DNA from: Brevibacillus brevis
GTDB taxonomy: Bacteria > Bacillota > Bacilli > Brevibacillales > Brevibacillaceae
Direction of reading: 5' to 3'
Length of the DNA stretch: 64,000 bases
Assembly: GCF_900637055.1 (NCBI RefSeq)
Contig: NZ_LR134338.1
Coordinates: forward strand, 289,501 to 353,500
Below the pieces are notes generated by a model. The model did not search any database. It was given only the letters and a program-made list of their open reading frames with translations, and was not told the DNA's origin. Numbering within the stretch: the first letter of the stretch is position 1; every line of letters begins with the position of its first letter. Of the stretch, positions 2,339 to 41,732 are shown in pieces. The translations under genes were made by a program, and so were the position numbers.

Positions 2339-3710
2339 TATTCAGGAGATGCCCCACAGCGAAGAAGCGGAGAAAGCGGTACTCGGGGCGATCTTCTGTA
2401 AGCCCCCTGCTATTGCAAAAGTCATCGATGAGCTAACGGCTATGGATTTCTACCGGACACGACATCAAATCCTCTACCAAGGCATGGCTGACTTGTACGA
2501 GAAAGGCGATCCGATTGACCTGGTAACGATAACAAGTCATTTACAAGAAAAGAAGGCGCTGGATAATGCGGGGGGAGTCCCGTACATTACGGAATTGGTC
2601 AGCTATACACCGACAGCAGAGAACATCGACTACTATGCAGGGATCGTTTTACACAAGGCTCGGCGCAGAAAGCTTATTGAAATCAACTACCAAGCGTACA
2701 AGGACAGCCTCAACAATGAAAATGTCGATGAAGTGCTTGCTCAGTCTGAAAAACTGGCAGCCGAGATTCGGGAACGTGGTAAAAAGCGGTCTGTACGACC
2801 GATCAGGGAAGTTGCGTTGGAAGCATACGAGGAGATTGACAGAACGTTTCAGCAGCGCGGAAGGACGGTTGGGGTTCCGTCCGGATATCCTGATTTGGAC
2901 AAAATGACGAGCGGATTTCATAAGCAAGATTTGATTATTCTGGCGGCTCGGCCTTCAATCGGAAAGACGGCACTGGCGCTAAATATCGCTCAAAACGCTT
3001 CAAAGAGTATAGGCGAACCAATCATGATCTTTTCATTGGAAATGAGTGCCGGGAAACTGGTTACGAGAATGGTGTGTGCGGAGGGCAATATTGACGCATC
3101 AAAGCTACGAAGCGGTTGGCTGGAAGGGGATGACTGGATTCGTTTGACGCACGCCTTGGGCATCGTCTCCAAGACGAACATCTATATAGACGATACACCT
3201 GAGATTGCTCTTGGAGAGCTTCGCTCAAAATGCCGGAAAATGAAGCAGCAGGAAGGGCTTGGCTTGGTCATCATTGACTACTTAACGAAAATAAGAATGG
3301 ACAAGCCAGGGCGAAGCAGGGAGCAGGAAGTATCTGAGATAGCACGGACGCTCAAAAGCATGGCTCGTGAGTTGGAAGTACCTGTGATCGCGCTCTCTCA
3401 GCTCAGTCGCGGCGTAGAACAGCGGCAGGATAAGCGGCCGATGATGAGTGACTTACGTGAGTCAGGTCAAATTGAGCAAGAAGCAGATTTGGTCGCTTTT
3501 CTTTATCGTGATGATTACTACGATAAGGTAACGGAAAACAAGAACATCTTGGAGGTCATCATTGCGAAACAACGGAACGGACCAATTGGAACGGTGGAGC
3601 TGGCCTTTCTCAAGGAGTTCAATAAGTTCGTGAGTCTCGATCATCGTTTTGGTAAGCAACAAACAATTGACGATGAACCAGAGGAGCGGGACACGCAGTG
3701 GCGGCAATGA
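2331..3710 (+). CDS. dnaB: Replicative DNA helicase (DnaB-like)
   Basis: This 459-residue protein has the full DnaB layout. The N-terminal helical domain (residues ~1-110, beginning MPHSEEAEKAVLGAI) is followed by a linker and a RecA-like ATPase domain with Walker A ARPSIGKTALA near 205 and Walker B LVIIDYL near 312. The conserved SQLSRGVEQRQDKRPMMSDL and an RDDYYD region complete the core. Length agrees with bacterial DnaB (about 450). It starts in an 8-base overlap with the DnaC-like loader, forming a loader-helicase pair. Gene symbol is by family; it is the phage-encoded copy, not the host helicase. Confidence 0.94.
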   Translation: MIDIQEMPHSEEAEKAVLGAIFCKPPAIAKVIDELTAMDFYRTRHQILYQGMADLYEKGDPIDLVTITSHLQEKKALDNAGGVPYITELVSYTPTAENIDYYAGIVLHKARRRKLIEINYQAYKDSLNNENVDEVLAQSEKLAAEIRERGKKRSVRPIREVALEAYEEIDRTFQQRGRTVGVPSGYPDLDKMTSGFHKQDLIILAARPSIGKTALALNIAQNASKSIGEPIMIFSLEMSAGKLVTRMVCAEGNIDASKLRSGWLEGDDWIRLTHALGIVSKTNIYIDDTPEIALGELRSKCRKMKQQEGLGLVIIDYLTKIRMDKPGRSREQEVSEIARTLKSMARELEVPVIALSQLSRGVEQRQDKRPMMSDLRESGQIEQEADLVAFLYRDDYYDKVTENKNILEVIIAKQRNGPIGTVELAFLKEFNKFVSLDHRFGKQQTIDDEPEERDTQWRQ

Positions 3711-3849
3711 GAAAGATGTTTTGAAATGAGTTACCTATTTCATTGAATGCTTGGTTGTAAAATTCTCTTCTTTTAGGCGAATTGGTTGTAATGACTTTTG
3801 TCAATATCGACTCAAATTATTCCAAGAATTATTCCTGGGAGGGACCTTG

Positions 3850-4491
3850 ATGCAAGTAGGGCATAGGCCAGATAAGAAAAACACGAAAAAACTCGATCTT
3901 TATCTCAATGCACTGATCGCCGCTCTGCCAGATGCAATGGATAATGATAAAGCCTTGGAGCGTACCATCTTTTATGGCGTAAAGTACTTTGGACGGGCAG
4001 GAGAACATACAACGCTCGAAGATATGGAACGGCGCTTCCACATTACAGAGGCGATCATGGCATATATCTCCTTGGTCACTCCAAGAAGGTTTACGAGCAT
4101 CTTTCCGATCACAAAGGAATATGACGGCAACCGTCGAGGAACCAAAGATTATTTTTACACCGTGGATAAAATCGCAGAGCTTGGATGGGACAAGCCGATT
4201 GGTGAGACATCTGAAACTGTATTTGATTTTCTGTGGGACTACAATAACTGGGATATAACTTTTTTTCTTGTCGAATTCATGAGCCTAATGAGCGATATGA
4301 GACGAGCGAAAGGACAGCCGGGGATCATGGAGCAATGGGCTGCCGAAAACGGAATCCAAACATATACGCTCCATACCACACCCGATGGCGACCAATTCGT
4401 TATGGATAGCAAAGGAAGAACAAAACCAGTTCGAGAAAAACGGCCGAAACATTTGAAACTGGTGGTTCCGAAAAGGGGGAAGGGGAAGTGA
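3850..4491 (+). CDS. Hypothetical phage protein
   Basis: This encodes 213 residues from ATG 3850, supported by GGGAGG seven bases upstream; the frame is open further back to 3751 but without a ribosome site. The N-terminal half is predicted helical (a region around residues 30-100 resembles a packed helical domain) and the C-terminus is strongly basic (RPKHLKLVVPKRGKGK), suggesting nucleic-acid contact. I recognise no family. The GTG of the ORF6N gene overlaps its stop, so the two are coupled. Confidence 0.68.
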   Translation: MQVGHRPDKKNTKKLDLYLNALIAALPDAMDNDKALERTIFYGVKYFGRAGEHTTLEDMERRFHITEAIMAYISLVTPRRFTSIFPITKEYDGNRRGTKDYFYTVDKIAELGWDKPIGETSETVFDFLWDYNNWDITFFLVEFMSLMSDMRRAKGQPGIMEQWAAENGIQTYTLHTTPDGDQFVMDSKGRTKPVREKRPKHLKLVVPKRGKGK

Positions 4492-5213
4492 GTAACTTAC
4501 AGGTGTTTGACTACGAGGGCCAAAGGGTATTGACCACAGCTCAGTTGGCTGAGTCATACGGAACAGATAACGACAACATCAACGACAACTTCCAAAATAA
4601 CGTTACACGGTACAAAGAAGGCAAACACTTTTTCGCTCTTAAAGGTGACGAGTTAAAGCAGTTCAAAGCTTCCCAGAAAGTTTCGGGGAACCTCAAGTAT
4701 GCTCCTGTAATTTATCTCTGGACTGAAAAAGGTGCATGGCTGCACGCGAAGTCTCTGAACACAGATGAAGCATGGGAAGCCTACGAAATGCTCGTGGACG
4801 ACTACTATCGCGTTATCGAGAATCCTAGCGCATATGCTAGCTTGAGTCCCGAAGTAAAAGCGATCTTCTTCCTGGATCAGAAGCAACAAGAAATCGAGAG
4901 TCGTGTCGAGAGGCTAGAGGAAAGCAAGACAATCGACTACGGTCAGCAGCTCTTGCTTCAAAATGCAGCCAGACAGCAAGCAGTACAGGTCCTTGGCGGA
5001 AAAGATGGACAAGCTTACCAAGACAGCAGCTTGCGCGGAAAAGTGTTCTCGTCAATTTGGCGGGATTTCAAGGGATACTTCAACGTTGACTCATACCGAA
5101 ATACTCGGGTCCTTGATCTGGAAAAGGCGAAGGAATACATCAACGATTGGCGTCCACAGGGAAAACTCCTTCGAGAAATTGAAGATGCCAATAGTCAGTT
5201 GGCGTTTTCGTAG
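4488..5213 (+). CDS. Phage antirepressor with ORF6N and ORF6C domains
   Basis: The 241-residue protein begins with an ORF6N domain (about residues 1-95; VFDYEGQRVLTTAQLAESYG, then NFQNNVTRYKEGKHFF and YLWTEKGAWLHAKSLNT), a DNA-binding module common in Firmicutes phage antirepressors. A coiled-coil linker follows (QQEIESRVERLEES). The C-terminal ~100 residues resemble ORF6C (SSIWRDFKGYFNVDSYRNT). Such proteins usually relieve lytic genes from the phage repressor. The start GTG overlaps the preceding stop. Confidence 0.85.
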   Translation: MSNLQVFDYEGQRVLTTAQLAESYGTDNDNINDNFQNNVTRYKEGKHFFALKGDELKQFKASQKVSGNLKYAPVIYLWTEKGAWLHAKSLNTDEAWEAYEMLVDDYYRVIENPSAYASLSPEVKAIFFLDQKQQEIESRVERLEESKTIDYGQQLLLQNAARQQAVQVLGGKDGQAYQDSSLRGKVFSSIWRDFKGYFNVDSYRNTRVLDLEKAKEYINDWRPQGKLLREIEDANSQLAFS

Positions 5214-10571: not shown

Positions 10572-11783
10572 ATGGACATACGGAAAATACCAGTCTTTAT
10601 GATTAAGGCTGCTGAATATAACCCGCGAATAGATTTGCAGCCGGGCGACCCTGAATACGAGAAATTGAAACGATCCATTCAAGAGTTTGGCTACGTCGAG
10701 CCGCTGGTTTGGAATGAGCGAAGTGGAAACCTTGTCGGAGGGCATCAGCGATTCAAAATACTCGTCAACGAGTTAGGACGGACTGAGGTAGACGTATCAG
10801 TCGTTGACTTGGATGACATTAAGGAGAAGGCACTCAACATCGCTCTGAACAAAATCAGCGGGGATTGGGATGAGGAAATGCTCGCCCAGGTGTTGACGGA
10901 GCTACAGGAGTGCGATTTGGACGTAGAGCTCACAGGTTTTGATCTGGATGAAGTTGTAGATTTGATCAACGATTACGTCAACATTGAAATAGATGAACCA
11001 GTTAAAGAAGATGATTTCGATATTGAAGACGAGCTCTCTAAAATCGAAGAGCCAGTCACACGACCAGGCGACCTTTGGATTCTCGGGCGACATCGACTTT
11101 TGTGCGGAGATTCAACCAATCAATCGGACGTCGAACGGCTTATGGATGGCAAGCTTGCTGCAATGGCTTTCACCGATCCGCCGTACAACGTGGATTACAC
11201 CGGTAAAACGAAGGATGCTCTTAAGATTGAAAACGACAAAATGGCAGACGGCCAGTTCAAGGAATTCCTGGTGACCGTCTATCAAAACCTCTTTCTCGTA
11301 TCCGAAGAGGGAGCCCCTATCTATGTATGTTATGCGGCTACGGAGGGCGCAAATTTTAAATCAGCTATGAAAGAATCAGGATGGCTTTTGAAACAGTGTC
11401 TCGTTTGGGTAAAAAATAGTTTCTCTATTGGCCGACAGGATTACCATTGGCGACACGAGCCAATTCTCTACGGATGGAAGCCGGGGGCTGCACATCGATG
11501 GTACGGCGACCGCAAGCAGGACACGGTCTGGGAAATTGATAAGCCAACGCGCAATGGCGAGCATCCCACGATGAAGCCAATTGCTCTAGTTGCTCGAGCT
11601 TTACAGAACAGCAGTAAGCGTGGGGACATCGCGGTAGACTTCTTTGGCGGTTCTGGATCCACACTTGTTGCGGCTGAGCAAACCGAGAGGGTTGCCTACC
11701 TCATGGAGATTGACCCCAAATATTGTGATGTGATCGTAAAACGATGGGAACAACTCACTGGTGAAATAGCAGTGAAGGCATAA
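10572..11783 (+). CDS. ParB-domain DNA methyltransferase (beta-class N6-adenine/N4-cytosine)
   Basis: This 403-residue protein has a ParB/Srx-like N-terminal domain (residues ~1-110; AAEYNPRI ... LVGGHQRF) joined to an amino-methyltransferase. The catalytic motif IV reads TDPPYNVDY near residue 201 and the AdoMet motif I reads DFFGGSGST near 355, an order that defines the beta class. There is no restriction partner, so it is an orphan phage methylase that may protect phage DNA from host restriction or modify sites for packaging control. ATG 10572 has AAGGAG ten bases upstream. Confidence 0.92.
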   Translation: MDIRKIPVFMIKAAEYNPRIDLQPGDPEYEKLKRSIQEFGYVEPLVWNERSGNLVGGHQRFKILVNELGRTEVDVSVVDLDDIKEKALNIALNKISGDWDEEMLAQVLTELQECDLDVELTGFDLDEVVDLINDYVNIEIDEPVKEDDFDIEDELSKIEEPVTRPGDLWILGRHRLLCGDSTNQSDVERLMDGKLAAMAFTDPPYNVDYTGKTKDALKIENDKMADGQFKEFLVTVYQNLFLVSEEGAPIYVCYAATEGANFKSAMKESGWLLKQCLVWVKNSFSIGRQDYHWRHEPILYGWKPGAAHRWYGDRKQDTVWEIDKPTRNGEHPTMKPIALVARALQNSSKRGDIAVDFFGGSGSTLVAAEQTERVAYLMEIDPKYCDVIVKRWEQLTGEIAVKA

Positions 11784-35808: not shown

Positions 35809-35835
35809 CCCCCCTAAAAAATTGGGGGGGTTTTT
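35809..35835 (+). terminator. Terminator of the late (structural-lysis) operon
   Basis: CCCCCC (35809-35814) and GGGGGGG (35824-35830) flank a TAAAAAATT loop; TTTTTG follows. It ends the phage late operon and separates the cargo region. Confidence 0.88.
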
Positions 35836-35862
35836 GTAATTGTTAAAAAATGTTACCATAAT
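35834..35862 (+). promoter_or_regulatory. Promoter of the STAS-ATPase gene
   Basis: TTGTAA (35834-35839), a 17-bp spacer and CATAAT (35857-35862) lie about 30 bases before the GTG start of the first cargo gene, directly behind the late-operon terminator. Confidence 0.5.
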
Positions 35863-35892
35863 GGGAAAATTAGAAGCCCAGATGGTGATCGT

Positions 35893-36756
35893 GTGAACGT
35901 ATTGGCTTATAGTGGTAGACTAAAAAACATAGATAATGTGCACTACTTGTTGGATTTATCCAGTGAAGTTTATGACATAACAGAAAGTGCAGAAACAGTG
36001 ACAATTGATCTTAGTGAACTAACTATGATTTCTTCGCTAGGGTGCATTGGATTACTATCGGCATTGGATACATTAGAACGCTTCTTTTATTTGGACGTTA
36101 CAATTCCCAAAGAACTTAACGTAATTAGTTATATGGAACGCATGGATTTTTTTAAGTATTGTCCGAGTGAGGTGAGGAATTCTTTCGAAAAAAAGATTGA
36201 TATGCATTATTACTACAATCGCAATCGGAAAGATACCACTAACAAATTACTTGAGATTCAAAAATTAAATAGTGCAGATGAAGTTGATAAAATTTGTATC
36301 GCAATAAGGAATATTCTTGGGAACGGTTCTTACGAAGGGATCAGAATTTCTGACATCATCAGGATTGTTACTGAGCTAGCTAGCAATGCAGTGGAACATG
36401 GCGAATGGAATGCATATGCAAGCATTCAATATTATCCGACAAGAGGGACAGTTGAGATAACAATTGGAGATAATGGCATAGGGATTTATCGATCATTACA
36501 TGAATATTTGCCAAACCAAAGAAAGCACGAGGTAATTAGGCAGGCCGTAATGACCAGGGCATCTCGTTATATTGACGGTGATCGTGGCAGGGGGTTAATG
36601 GACGTAAAAAGAACAACATTCAATAATTCGTACAATGCGGCATTTTATCTAAGGACGCATGACAGTACCTACCAAATTTATCCTGAAAATTTAGAGTTAA
36701 TGTACTCTGGTAAATATTTTTGGGGAACTTTTTTTCATATCGAATTGCGTATATAA
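35893..36756 (+). CDS. STAS-HATPase fusion protein (GHKL-type ATPase)
   Basis: This encodes 287 residues from GTG 35893. Residues ~1-90 look like a STAS domain (VTIDLSELTMISSLGCIGLL, then LDVTIPKELNVISYMERMDF), as in anti-sigma antagonists. Residues ~150-270 are a GHKL ATPase: N-box ELASNAVEHG near 160, G1 box IGDNGIGIY near 192, and G2 box GRGL near 231. No His-phosphotransfer or sensor domain exists, so it is not a usual histidine kinase but resembles anti-sigma kinases fused to their own antagonist domain. Together with the next gene it could form a partner-switching pair. Codon use is AT-rich compared with the structural genes, which suggests separate acquisition. Confidence 0.75.
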   Translation: MNVLAYSGRLKNIDNVHYLLDLSSEVYDITESAETVTIDLSELTMISSLGCIGLLSALDTLERFFYLDVTIPKELNVISYMERMDFFKYCPSEVRNSFEKKIDMHYYYNRNRKDTTNKLLEIQKLNSADEVDKICIAIRNILGNGSYEGIRISDIIRIVTELASNAVEHGEWNAYASIQYYPTRGTVEITIGDNGIGIYRSLHEYLPNQRKHEVIRQAVMTRASRYIDGDRGRGLMDVKRTTFNNSYNAAFYLRTHDSTYQIYPENLELMYSGKYFWGTFFHIELRI

Positions 36757-36764
36757 AATATCAT

Positions 36765-36824
36765 TTGACATATTCTAAAACTATTGGTAGATTTAATTTA
36801 GGTTTCAAAACTACTTTTGAAATC
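36765..36824 (+). promoter_or_regulatory. Promoter and palindromic operator of the STAS-wHTH gene
   Basis: A consensus TTGACA (36765-36770), 17-bp spacer and TAGATT (36788-36793) precede an inverted repeat GGTTTCAAAA-ctac-TTTTGAAATC (36801-36824) that covers the expected transcription start. A repressor bound there would block the promoter; the winged helix of the downstream gene is the natural candidate for autoregulation. Confidence 0.65.
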
Positions 36825-36843
36825 GTTAGGAAGGTGATTTTCA

Positions 36844-37407
36844 ATGAAACCAATCGAGCTTTTGGGTGAGGTTGAGAAAAACAACTGGTTAAACAGACCT
36901 TCATTACAGGCGACAAAAAGCAGAATTATGGCTAGTATTGAAGAAGCTCCAAAAGGCAGTGTATTTTACTATGATCTCTCTCCTATTGAATCCATTAATG
37001 GTTCAGGTACAGACGAGCTAATAGCCAAGGTAATTAAATGGCTTAAGGAGAACTCAAAAGATCACGACAAGTATCTTTTTCTTGACAACCTAAGTCCTGA
37101 AGATGAGTATGACCATGCCTACAATATCCATATTTCATTAGAGGATGCAAAGGTAGCAGTCATAGCTAAAGAAAACTCGTCATTTGCGATATTAGGTTAC
37201 TTGGGAAAAGCCCTGAAGGACGTCCTTGGATTTGTATACGAAGCCAAGGAAACAAATGCTCGTGAAATCTCAGAATCTATGGACAAGAAACTAAACCTTG
37301 CCAGTACTCAATTATCAGATCTTTATAACATGAGATTGGTAAGTAGAGAGGAAGTTCAGCTTTCTGAGGGCGGCGGAAGACAGTATGTATACCGGAGTCT
37401 TTTCTAG
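36844..37407 (+). CDS. STAS-like (DUF4325) protein with C-terminal winged helix
   Basis: This encodes 187 residues from ATG 36844, GGAAGGTG upstream. The N-terminal ~110 residues are STAS-like (GSVFYYDLSPIESINGSGTDEL, LFLDNLSPEDEYDHAYNIH), of the DUF4325 type that often sits beside GHKL ATPase genes. The C-terminal ~60 residues are a winged helix (REISESMDKKLNLASTQLSD, LYNMRLVSREEVQLSEGGGR, YVYRSLF). An operator-like palindrome lies at its promoter. It plausibly links a signal from the ATPase to transcription. Confidence 0.72.
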   Translation: MKPIELLGEVEKNNWLNRPSLQATKSRIMASIEEAPKGSVFYYDLSPIESINGSGTDELIAKVIKWLKENSKDHDKYLFLDNLSPEDEYDHAYNIHISLEDAKVAVIAKENSSFAILGYLGKALKDVLGFVYEAKETNAREISESMDKKLNLASTQLSDLYNMRLVSREEVQLSEGGGRQYVYRSLF

Positions 37408-37436
37408 GGGGAGTATCCCCTAAAAAAACGGATCAC

Positions 37437-37454
37437 TTCAATTTTGAAATTGAA
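37437..37454. promoter_or_regulatory. Palindrome behind the STAS-wHTH gene
   Basis: TTCAATTT-TG-AAATTGAA is a perfect 8-bp inverted repeat with a 2-bp centre, 30 bases after the stop codon. It shares the TTTGAAAT core with the operator-like palindrome upstream of the same gene. Confidence 0.4.
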
Positions 37455-37536
37455 AACAAAAGGAAAGGGTGAGGCTTGCAATGACAAAAAAAATAAGCCC
37501 TTGCAGAGGGCCCACTGTCGAGTAACGACTTAATCT

Positions 37537-37680
37537 ATGATGGAAGTCGCTACGTTTAACAACATTTTGGCGAATGTTAAGTTAAATGTACCATCAGGAT
37601 GCCCCTCTTGCAAGGTTTTTAACCAAAAACCAAACAGGGGTGTTGTGAGATGCAAATTTGCAGACCATTTATTACATTGA
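37537..37680 (+). CDS. Small CxxC protein
   Basis: This encodes 47 residues from tandem ATGs at 37537/37540. A CPSC pair at about residue 28 and a later Cys (VRCKF) could bind zinc. No good ribosome site is present, so expression is doubtful. The end overlaps the next small gene in another frame by 31 bases, as in translational coupling. Similar mini proteins are frequent in Bacillus phages. Confidence 0.4.
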   Translation: MMEVATFNNILANVKLNVPSGCPSCKVFNQKPNRGVVRCKFADHLLH

Positions 37681-37820
37681 GAAACGGGCAAAAATTGTTT
37701 GCCCACCAAGTAGGTAAGAAGGCTTTTTGCTGGGATGTTACTGAGGAAAAACATCAACAGTATCTTGAAAAGCAGAAAAATAAAGCAGCAACTGACACTG
37801 ACGAAAGCGTAAAAGAGTAG
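37650..37820 (+). CDS. Small hypothetical phage protein
   Basis: This encodes 56 residues from ATG 37650, which has AGGGGTG eight bases upstream. The N-terminus is strand-like (ICRPFITLRNGQKLFAHQ) with an aromatic patch (KKAFCWDVTEE) and an acidic-basic tail. It is followed by a strong terminator 13 bases after the stop, which supports it as a true gene. Function unknown. Confidence 0.55.
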   Translation: MQICRPFITLRNGQKLFAHQVGKKAFCWDVTEEKHQQYLEKQKNKAATDTDESVKE

Positions 37821-39415: not shown

Positions 39416-39432
39416 AAATGAGGTTATCTTCG

Positions 39433-39747
39433 ATGAACGACTTGAAGCCGCAGCTAGAACAATATGAGAAAAAATTCAAAGCTCTTGCTGATCAAAAACG
39501 ATTAGAAATCATGTATGAGCTCTGCCAGAGAGGTAAAACCTGTGTCTGTGATCTAACGGAAGTATTTGATATGCCGCAATCTAAGTTATCGTATCATCTC
39601 AAGATCTTATTAGAGGCCAACCTAATCACGAAAGAGACAAAAGGCACATGGAGTTACTACGATCTAAATGATGTGGAAGTCAACCACCTGTTATCGGAAG
39701 AGCTTTGTTGTATTTTCAGGAAAACAGGTAAAGGAAGCTGCTGCTAA
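39433..39747 (+). CDS. arsR: Arsenic-responsive repressor ArsR
   Basis: This encodes 104 residues from ATG 39433 with GAGG upstream. It is a winged-helix ArsR/SmtB protein: FKALADQKRLEIMYELC, the metalloid motif CVCDL with Cys37 and Cys39, and the recognition helix MPQSKLSYHLKILLEA. A Cys-rich C-terminus (ELCCIF, GKGSCC) may add ligands. It represses the operon until As(III) binds; three identical dyads flank the gene. Confidence 0.94.
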   Translation: MNDLKPQLEQYEKKFKALADQKRLEIMYELCQRGKTCVCDLTEVFDMPQSKLSYHLKILLEANLITKETKGTWSYYDLNDVEVNHLLSEELCCIFRKTGKGSCC

Positions 39748-39764
39748 TTTTTTTTAAACCTTAT

Positions 39765-39780
39765 ATCAATTTTTTTTGAT
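39765..39780. promoter_or_regulatory. Third ArsR operator, between arsR and arsI
   Basis: ATCAATTTTTTTTGAT is the exact reverse complement of the two operators upstream of arsR. It lies in the 66-base gap before arsI and may act as a roadblock or control a second start. Confidence 0.75.
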
Positions 39781-39813
39781 TAACTTTATTAAAATTTAGG
39801 GAGGAACACGAAA

Positions 39814-40251
39814 ATGAAGTATGTTCACGTTGGGATTAACGTCACGAATTTAGAGAAATCGATTGATTTCTATCAAAAAGTGTTTGGAATAGAGCCGGTA
39901 AAGGTAAAGACAGATTATGCGAAGTTCTTATTGGAGAACCCAGGGCTTAACTTTACATTAAATGTTCGGGACACCGTTAGCGGAAATCAAGTGAATCACT
40001 TCGGATTCCAGGTTGAAAGTACAGAAGATATCGAAGCTCACAAGGAAAGGCTAGAAAAGGAAGACTTTTTCGCACGTGACGAGATGGATACGACTTGTTG
40101 CTATGCCGTTCAGGACAAATTTTGGGTTACTGATCCCGACGGTAACGAATGGGAGTTCTTTTACACAAAGGCCGATAGTGAAGTTCATAAAATTCAATCC
40201 ACATCCTGCTGCACAGAATCCACTACTGAAGTAAGCAGCTCTTGCTGTTAG
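39814..40251 (+). CDS. arsI: ArsI/CadI-type VOC metalloenzyme (C-As lyase family)
   Basis: This encodes 145 residues of the vicinal-oxygen-chelate fold ([21 protein letters not shown], then NHFGFQVES and [12 protein letters not shown]). Metal ligands would be His5, the His of NHFGF and a Glu in NEWEF. The vicinal Cys pair at 95-96 (TTCCYAV) is the organoarsenical site of ArsI C-As lyases. The tail has further Cys pairs (STSCC, SSSCC). It probably breaks the C-As bond of trivalent methylarsenicals; CadI-type metal binding is the alternative. The equivalent gene in the B. subtilis skin ars operon is yqcK. Confidence 0.85.
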
Positions 40252-40264
40252 GACGAATAGGACC

Positions 40265-41308
40265 ATGAAACAACTATCATTTTTAGATCGCTTCCTGACT
40301 CTCTGGATCTTCCTTGCCATGGTTATTGGGATTACTGTAGGAACTTACGTTCCAGCTTTTACAAGTGGCTTAAATAGCCTACAGATTGGTACAACATCCA
40401 TACCTCTCGCGATCGGCTTAATCGTGATGATGTATCCCCCTTTAGCAAAGGTTCGTTATGAAGAGATGGGGCGTGTATTTAAAGACCGAAAGGTTCTTTT
40501 GTTATCCCTTATTCAAAACTGGGTGATTGGCCCGGTTTTGATGTTTTTGTTGGCCATCGTTTTCCTGCCAGATAAGCCAGAGTATATGGTTGGTTTGATT
40601 ATGATTGGCCTGGCACGCTGTATTGCCATGGTCATTGTGTGGAATGACCTAGCAAAAGGAGATACAGAATACGCTGCTGGCCTTGTGGCATTCAATTCTG
40701 TGTTTCAGATGCTCTTCTTTTCGCTATACGCTTATGTTTTTGTCACCCTCATTCCGGAATGGATTGGCATGCAGGGGGCTGTCATTAGCATCACAATGGC
40801 GGAAGTTGCAACATCGGTGTTTATTTACCTGGGGATTCCTTTTCTTGCAGGGGTGCTTACGCGCTATTCTCTCGTAAAAGTAAAAGGCCGGCAGTGGTAT
40901 GAGAAAGTATTCATTCCGAAAATAAGTCCTATGACACTGATTGCCTTACTCTTTACCATTATTGTTATGTTCTCAACACAAGGACAAAACATCGTAAGTG
41001 TACCACTAGATGTCGTGCGAATCGCGATTCCACTTCTCATCTACTTCATCCTCATGTTCTTTATTTCTTTCTACATGGGGAAGAAGATAGGTGCAAATTA
41101 TCCCGTTACTACGACCCTCGCTTTTACGGCAGGCAGTAATAATTTTGAACTAGCGATCGCAGTGGCAGTCGGTGTGTTTGGAATTCACTCAGGTGCCGCC
41201 TTTGCAGCCGTCATCGGTCCTCTTGTTGAAGTACCGGTTATGATTGCATTGGTAAATGTAGCGTTATGGTTCAAGCGCAAATATTATGCCGACTCATCAT
41301 GTAAATGA
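40265..41308 (+). CDS. acr3: Arsenite efflux permease, ACR3 family
   Basis: This encodes 347 residues with about ten membrane segments. [38 protein letters not shown] (with the essential Cys) and [20 protein letters not shown] are diagnostic of ACR3. It exports As(III)OH using the proton gradient. It lies between arsI and arsC, 13 bases from the former. Confidence 0.95.
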
Positions 41309-41327
41309 AGCAAAAAAGGAGAGCATC

Positions 41328-41732
41328 ATGATCAACAAAAAAACCATCTACTTTTTATGCACAGGAAATTCCTGCCGTAGTCAAATGGCAGAAGCATGGG
41401 GAAAGAAGAACTTAGGCGAGACTTGGAATGTCTTTTCCGCTGGGATTGAAGCACATGGTGTCAATCCAAATGCCATTCAAGCGATGAAAGAAGTTGGCAT
41501 AGACATTTCCAGTCAAACATCTGATGTCATTGATCCTGATATATTGAACAATGCGGATCTCGTCGTAACATTATGCAGCCATGCAGATTCCATTTGCCCA
41601 ACCACACCCCCACATGTAAAACGCGTCCATTGGGGATTTGACGATCCGGCAGGGAAAGAATGGCCGGAGTTTCAAAGAGTGCGTGATGAAATCGGAGCCC
41701 GTATAAAGAAATTTGCGGAGACAGGGGAGTAA
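41328..41732 (+). CDS. arsC: Arsenate reductase, thioredoxin-coupled
   Basis: This encodes 134 residues from ATG 41328 (AAAAGGAGAG upstream), chosen over an earlier in-frame ATG at 41286 inside acr3. The low-molecular-weight phosphatase loop is LCTGNSCRS with nucleophile Cys11, Arg17; the redox pair Cys83/Cys90 lies in [11 protein letters not shown]. It reduces arsenate to arsenite for ACR3 export. The order arsR-arsI-acr3-arsC is that of the B. subtilis skin element. Confidence 0.96.

Follow-up and report, generated by a model that had tools for sequence, protein, structure and literature searches.

The closest described counterpart of the locus analysed here is the CapK/CapS pair, in which CapS represses its own promoter together with a downstream immune operon, and in which CapK, once activated by single-stranded DNA, phosphorylates a serine in the STAS domain of CapS, upon which the CapS dimer separates and the operon is turned on (PMC13373217, EMBO J, June 2026). 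As reported in the main text of that paper, capK precedes capS in 443 of 443 pairs, an immune operon follows 348 of these 443, and deletion of the helix-turn-helix (HTH) domain of CapK was without effect. Its main text makes no mention of Paenibacillus, Firmicutes or noncoding RNA. A literature search on CapK/CapS found it together with two papers that looked unrelated.

In the 64-kb window (the whole stretch of Brevibacillus brevis DNA that was analysed), a comparable organization is formed by two plus-strand genes: K (positions 35893–36756, 287 aa, GTG start), encoding a CapK-like STAS-GHKL kinase-like protein without an N-terminal HTH, and S (36844–37407, 187 aa), encoding a CapS-like STAS-winged-helix repressor-like protein with an invariant Ser54. 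Both reading frames were found where the first-pass annotation had placed them; it described the pair as a candidate signalling or defence module in the cargo region of a prophage, and its interval (35834–37454) excludes the downstream cassette of RNA, peptide and small protein discussed below. The location that it gave, behind the lysis genes of the prophage, was borne out: a holin (phrog_199), an amidase endolysin and a 118-aa phage gene are encoded upstream of the pair, and an intrinsic-terminator-like GC hairpin followed by a T-run, read by eye on the plus strand at about 35810–35838, stands at the end of the lysis operon. The surrounding prophage encodes a terminase, portal, head protease, major head protein, tail sheath and baseplate and is of the contractile-tail type. 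A second K-S pair (K 48% and S 51% identical) with the same gene order, again behind an endolysin gene, is encoded at another place in this genome, which argues that the pairing is not due to chance. Elsewhere in the window, a ParB-like/DNA methyltransferase fusion is encoded upstream of the prophage terminase genes (10572–11783), and an arsR-like gene and other arsenic-resistance-like genes, identified by eye, follow the prophage end region (39418–41732).

Residues 154–240 of K match the Pfam family HATPase_c over the cut-off (E 2.4e-6), and the predicted structure of the protein (mean pLDDT 85.2, pTM 0.87) aligns with that of the GHKL kinase SpoIIAB (E 4.5e-5, TMt 0.68), with weaker matches to STAS structures (SpoIIAA and a SulP STAS domain; E 0.007–0.01, TMt 0.52–0.61). 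All 16 K proteins carry Glu161, Asn165, His169, Asp193, Gly195 and Gly197, Asn165 being the catalytic residue of the GHKL N-box, and Gly232 and Gly234 are present in 15 of the 16; the exception, the K protein of locus L036, appears to be frameshifted past the G1 box. The proposed fusion of a STAS-like domain to a GHKL ATPase with complete N, G1 and G2 boxes is thus upheld, including the STAS fold that the first-pass annotation had singled out for checking and that was detected in the K model. The 287-aa model opens with strands and the STAS helix, with no N-terminal HTH. At the column possibly equivalent to Trp68 of CapK and Phe54 of VapK, a match set by numbering and not by alignment with CapK, 14 of the 16 K proteins have Trp or Phe; the window protein has Leu at this position, with an adjacent Tyr, and sensing of single-stranded DNA by the window K is therefore uncertain.

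The S profile was matched over most of its length to the solved CapS structures 9z72 (E 1.4e-13) and 9z71 (E 9e-11). No Pfam match to STAS or DUF4325 was obtained for the window S itself, and its relative in L013 matches DUF4325 over the cut-off (E 5.6e-6). As the S model is of poor quality in its first half (mean pLDDT 57 overall) and the structural matches found were winged-helix folds, the STAS domain of S is assigned by homology. Where a DUF4325/STAS-like domain joined to a winged helix had been annotated, the winged helix is backed by both the model and the CapS profile, and the STAS part by homology. All 19 S proteins have Ser54 and Glu58 (L033, which is the same locus as L016, was left out of residue and pairing counts), and Ser54 aligns with the second Ser of the DSS motif in CapS from E. 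roggenkampii, with an uncertain offset in chain numbering.

A promoter-like TTGACA-N17-TAGATT, read by eye, is located upstream of S (36765–36793, plus strand) and is followed by candidate S operator 1, GGTTTCAA-N8-TTGAAATC (36801–36824, plus strand), whose TTCAA-N8-TTGAA core (36804–36821) was found in 10 of 10 close loci. Candidate operator 2 (TTCAA-N8-TTGAA; 37437–37454, plus strand) lies upstream of the cassette and was identified by motif search and by its conservation among close loci. The motif occurs at two sites in the 64-kb window against 0.21 expected, with one of 100 shuffles having two, and both sites flank S, one before and one behind the gene. Throughout the close clade (the window, L009, L002, L015, L016 and L034–L038; 10 of 10 loci), TCAA-N8-TTGA is found 28–56 bp before S and again, once or twice, 31–86 bp behind it; in the distant clade of S loci, the TTCAA-N8-TTGAA operator is not found at both places.

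The window pair shares with CapK/CapS the placement of a STAS-GHKL kinase gene directly before a STAS-winged-helix gene, the invariant STAS serine of S, candidate operators on both sides of S, reminiscent of the two CapS sites, and immune operons behind its relatives. It differs in that CapK has an N-terminal HTH which the window K lacks, in that the CapS sites are TTAA palindromes rather than TTCAA-N8-TTGAA, and in that the window cargo is a prophage cassette of RNA, peptide and small protein. Because the HTH of K and the TTAA sites are missing, the pair was not filed as a strict member of CapK/CapS; judged from these comparisons, it is a variant of CapK/CapS that very probably works like it. 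The lack of an HTH is shared with VapK of the VapKSC system, whereas VapS, as described in the main text of PMC13373217, has no DNA-binding domain and the window S keeps its winged helix. Among the downstream proteins scanned, no match to a VapC-like or PIN-domain gene was found behind the window S.

Close relatives of the window pair are rare. A pair with 76% (K) and 85% (S) identity was found on a viral contig, the only such contig found, and a phage tblastn search for close relatives returned no match. No other genome with the pair was found among 39 genomes of the family; among 99 relatives, S was found in G000 only and K otherwise gave two weak partial matches (E 3.5e-4), and among 398 genomes of the phylum K was matched in two besides G000. 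A contig scan of named genomes gave four K loci, two of them remote, with K present in Paenibacillus oleatilyticus and P. fonticola (about 41%), and the S profile identified 14 places in 13 of 394 genomes from a single family (centre G041; inferred to be Paenibacillaceae). Co-occurrence of the two genes in other genomes, proposed as a check in the first-pass annotation, was evident: K is the immediate upstream gene in 16 of the 19 distinct S loci, the exceptions being L039, where S is broken, L040 and L042.

Immune genes are encoded downstream of K-S in several relatives: type II CBASS genes (patatin, cyclase, E1/E2-like and JAB-like) in L045 and L046, of which the patatin and cyclase of L046 were confirmed by search and the rest assigned by eye; a CBASS cyclase in L041; multi-ubiquitin and ThiF/JAB genes constituting a Bub-like operon in L034; and E1-like genes similar to those of L034, by eye, in L044. 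Additionally, a CAP12/Pycsar TIR effector-like gene (3549–4595, minus strand) follows the RNA cassette in L036, and L043 is located behind GajA and GajB. No known defence or immune gene was recognized behind the window S in Pfam and profile scans. The suggested defence module is hence better described as a controller than as an effector, an assignment made by homology to relatives that lie upstream of CBASS and Bub-like operons. In L013 (1438–3785; G124, a genome of the phylum), recA, identified by eye, follows K-S after about 20 bp, and the switch may there control DNA repair, outside immunity. In the Paenibacillus loci L015 (6958–9971) and L016 (6896–8872), K-S is followed by a gene for a 420–427-aa protein of unknown function and by a 222-aa gene weakly matching CoiA_N, with a PADLOC PDC-M36A-like gene following in L015; these genes form a possible uncharacterised defence operon. 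A K-like gene in a deltaproteobacterial MAG (L017, 4156–5801) overlaps the end of a radC-like gene, as read by eye, with no adjacent S seen.

The cassette downstream of S (37481–37820) is the more interesting part of the locus. It comprises, all on the plus strand, a short ORF encoding MTKKISPCRGPTVE (37481–37525) with an R-G/E-P-T motif (C-R-G/E-P-T in full), a structured RNA of roughly 120 nt (37498–37615) whose 5' arm (37498–37512) pairs with its 3' arm (37601–37615), and a small protein of 56 aa (37650–37820). The small protein carries the motif ICRPFITL(R/K)NG..A..GKKAF, with Arg in the window, the protein of L009 (copy 2) being only weakly similar, by eye; related small ORFs were found in a Bordetella phage, Microcystis phage MACPNOA1 and plasmids of B. 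subtilis and P. putida. In the short ORF, R-G/E-(Q)-P-T is in frame in 13 of 14 cassettes; L060 keeps the letters of the RNA, with R-G/E-P-T in another frame. At the Pro and Thr codons, all four bases occur in the third position and the first two positions are constant (11 in-frame ORFs of a 12-locus set), a pattern that is a sign of translation.

In the first three copies, the RNA folds better than its shuffles (z −4.3, −4.7 and −4.5), and the same holds for 12 of 12 with wider borders (z −1.6 to −6.7). Pairing of the two arms beats at least 197 of 200 shuffles in nine of 12 loci; in the other three this closing-helix test failed or was mis-set, with 18 of 200 shuffles as good in L009, 13 of 200 in L036 and 92 of 200 in L035, where the 3' segment was shortened by the long ORF of the locus. 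Among 12 aligned RNAs, 114 of 132 cells are paired compared to 106.9 when 3' arms are swapped between loci (0 of 5000 permutations equal), and among 14 RNAs 126 of 140 compared to 119.7 (10 of 10,000 equal), both permutation tests ignoring relatedness. No Rfam match was obtained at the gathering score for the whole window, the best permissive match being a lncRNA segment (E 0.065), and nothing was found in a search, mainly of freely available journal papers, on the peptide and small-protein motifs and the RNA topic; the cassette appears to be undescribed in that literature. Several other interpretations were set aside. An ORF of 47 aa (37537–37680) that overlaps the RNA was regarded as due to chance. 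Ribosome bypassing, in which translation would hop across the RNA to reach the small protein, was rejected, as the GAG codons match in the window but not in the viral locus and the small ORFs have their own starts. A retron RNA, considered for its complementary ends, was dismissed with no reverse transcriptase noticed in the neighbourhoods read, and L065, which an RNA pattern scan had retrieved, has neither the short ORF nor the small protein and was discarded as a chance match in GC-rich sequence.

The 14 cassettes stand behind different kinds of genes: six behind K-S (window, L009, L002, L043, L036 and L035), five behind an XRE and M78-type peptidase pair (L052, L058, L060, L062 and L066), and three behind other genes (L049, L051 and L053). 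The upstream genes in L058 matched the PADLOC models capH (8e-9) and capP (6.7e-15) and the Pfam families HTH_3 and Peptidase_M78; CapH/CapP models were run on L058 only, the other four pairs being identified by eye. In L058, CapH/CapP shares with K-S its position upstream of the same RNA cassette, whereas its XRE repressor and M78 peptidase are unrelated to K and S. The small protein occurs in seven of the 394 genomes and lies behind an S gene in five of the seven (Fisher p 3.4e-7, uncorrected for relatedness). We tentatively propose, at slightly less than even odds, that the cassette is an effector of mobile elements which is induced by stress and can be exchanged between unrelated DNA-damage controllers (CapK/CapS-like and CapH/CapP-like), and that K-S switches in Bacillota constitute a broader damage-response system, found in one genome directly before recA.

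From these comparisons, we consider it likely that K-S is a stress-operated switch of the CapK/CapS kind which controls S and the cassette, with the cassette as its output. In the quiet lysogen, S, by analogy a dimer held by its STAS domain, would occupy the TTCAA-N8-TTGAA sites on both sides of its gene, the first at the S promoter, and would thereby repress both itself and the cassette. Upon activation, for which the trigger is single-stranded DNA in the case of CapK and presumably the same here, K would phosphorylate S at Ser54. Phosphorylated S would then leave the DNA and allow transcription of S and of the cassette, so that the short CRGPT ORF, the structured RNA and the 56-aa protein would be produced. 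The cassette most likely acts as an anti-phage or abortive effector, a role that is favoured because the cassette recurs behind CapH/CapP-like genes and because, in relatives, the switch is followed by CBASS.

Alternatively, the pair could sense single-stranded DNA from induction of its own prophage and turn on a late RNA and small protein for the benefit of the phage, for example in host takeover or lysis timing. The cassette does lie behind lysis genes in the window, L009, L002 and L062, and small-protein relatives in the Bordetella and Microcystis phages are likewise encoded near lysis genes; however, other members stand beside defence genes (the CAP12/Pycsar TIR gene of L036 and GajA/GajB of L043), and the switch is found upstream of CBASS in relatives. 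We therefore favour an effector role for the cassette and regard a role in phage timing as rather unlikely. A different question is how the RNA itself might operate. In erm-type translational attenuators, a short ORF lies over one arm and alternative helices form before a second ribosome site. By a similar logic, a ribosome on the short ORF would open the 5' arm and leave the 3' arm free to mask the small protein's ribosome site; when the leader is no longer translated, the small protein would be turned on. The short ORF indeed overlaps the 5' arm in the cassettes, alternative helices are predicted, the codon pattern of the short ORF indicates translation, and once the 5' arm is removed, the ribosome site in the window, L009, L043 and L051 is more strongly masked than in almost every shuffle. 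Unlike what is expected of an erm-type attenuator, however, support for the masking helix is confined to 4 of the 12 loci, and in L052 and L058 the ribosome site is as open as in shuffles, which makes attenuation unlikely.

The best match of the K model, SpoIIAB, also raises the reading of K-S as a classical anti-sigma/anti-anti-sigma pair in which K would hold a sigma factor. The window pair resembles SpoIIAB/SpoIIAA in its GHKL fold and STAS serine but differs in the STAS domain fused to K, the winged helix of S and the candidate operators that flank S. S moreover matches solved CapS, both its winged helix and the paired operators argue against an anti-sigma function, and no sigma-factor gene was noticed among the immediate neighbours read; we regard this reading as highly improbable. 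The same considerations bear on the initial comparison to a partner-switching pair: a fused ATPase/antagonist fold with a DNA-binding partner fits well, but classical partner switching does not, since the substrate itself bears the DNA-binding domain.

Read as a CapK/CapS-like switch, the window pair would extend a recently described kinase-repressor mechanism to Gram-positive prophages, in a form that has another operator and lacks the HTH domain. The compact cassette downstream appears to be common to two different damage-sensing controllers, as would be expected of an effector, and the pair linked to recA suggests that such switches may regulate DNA repair beyond immunity.
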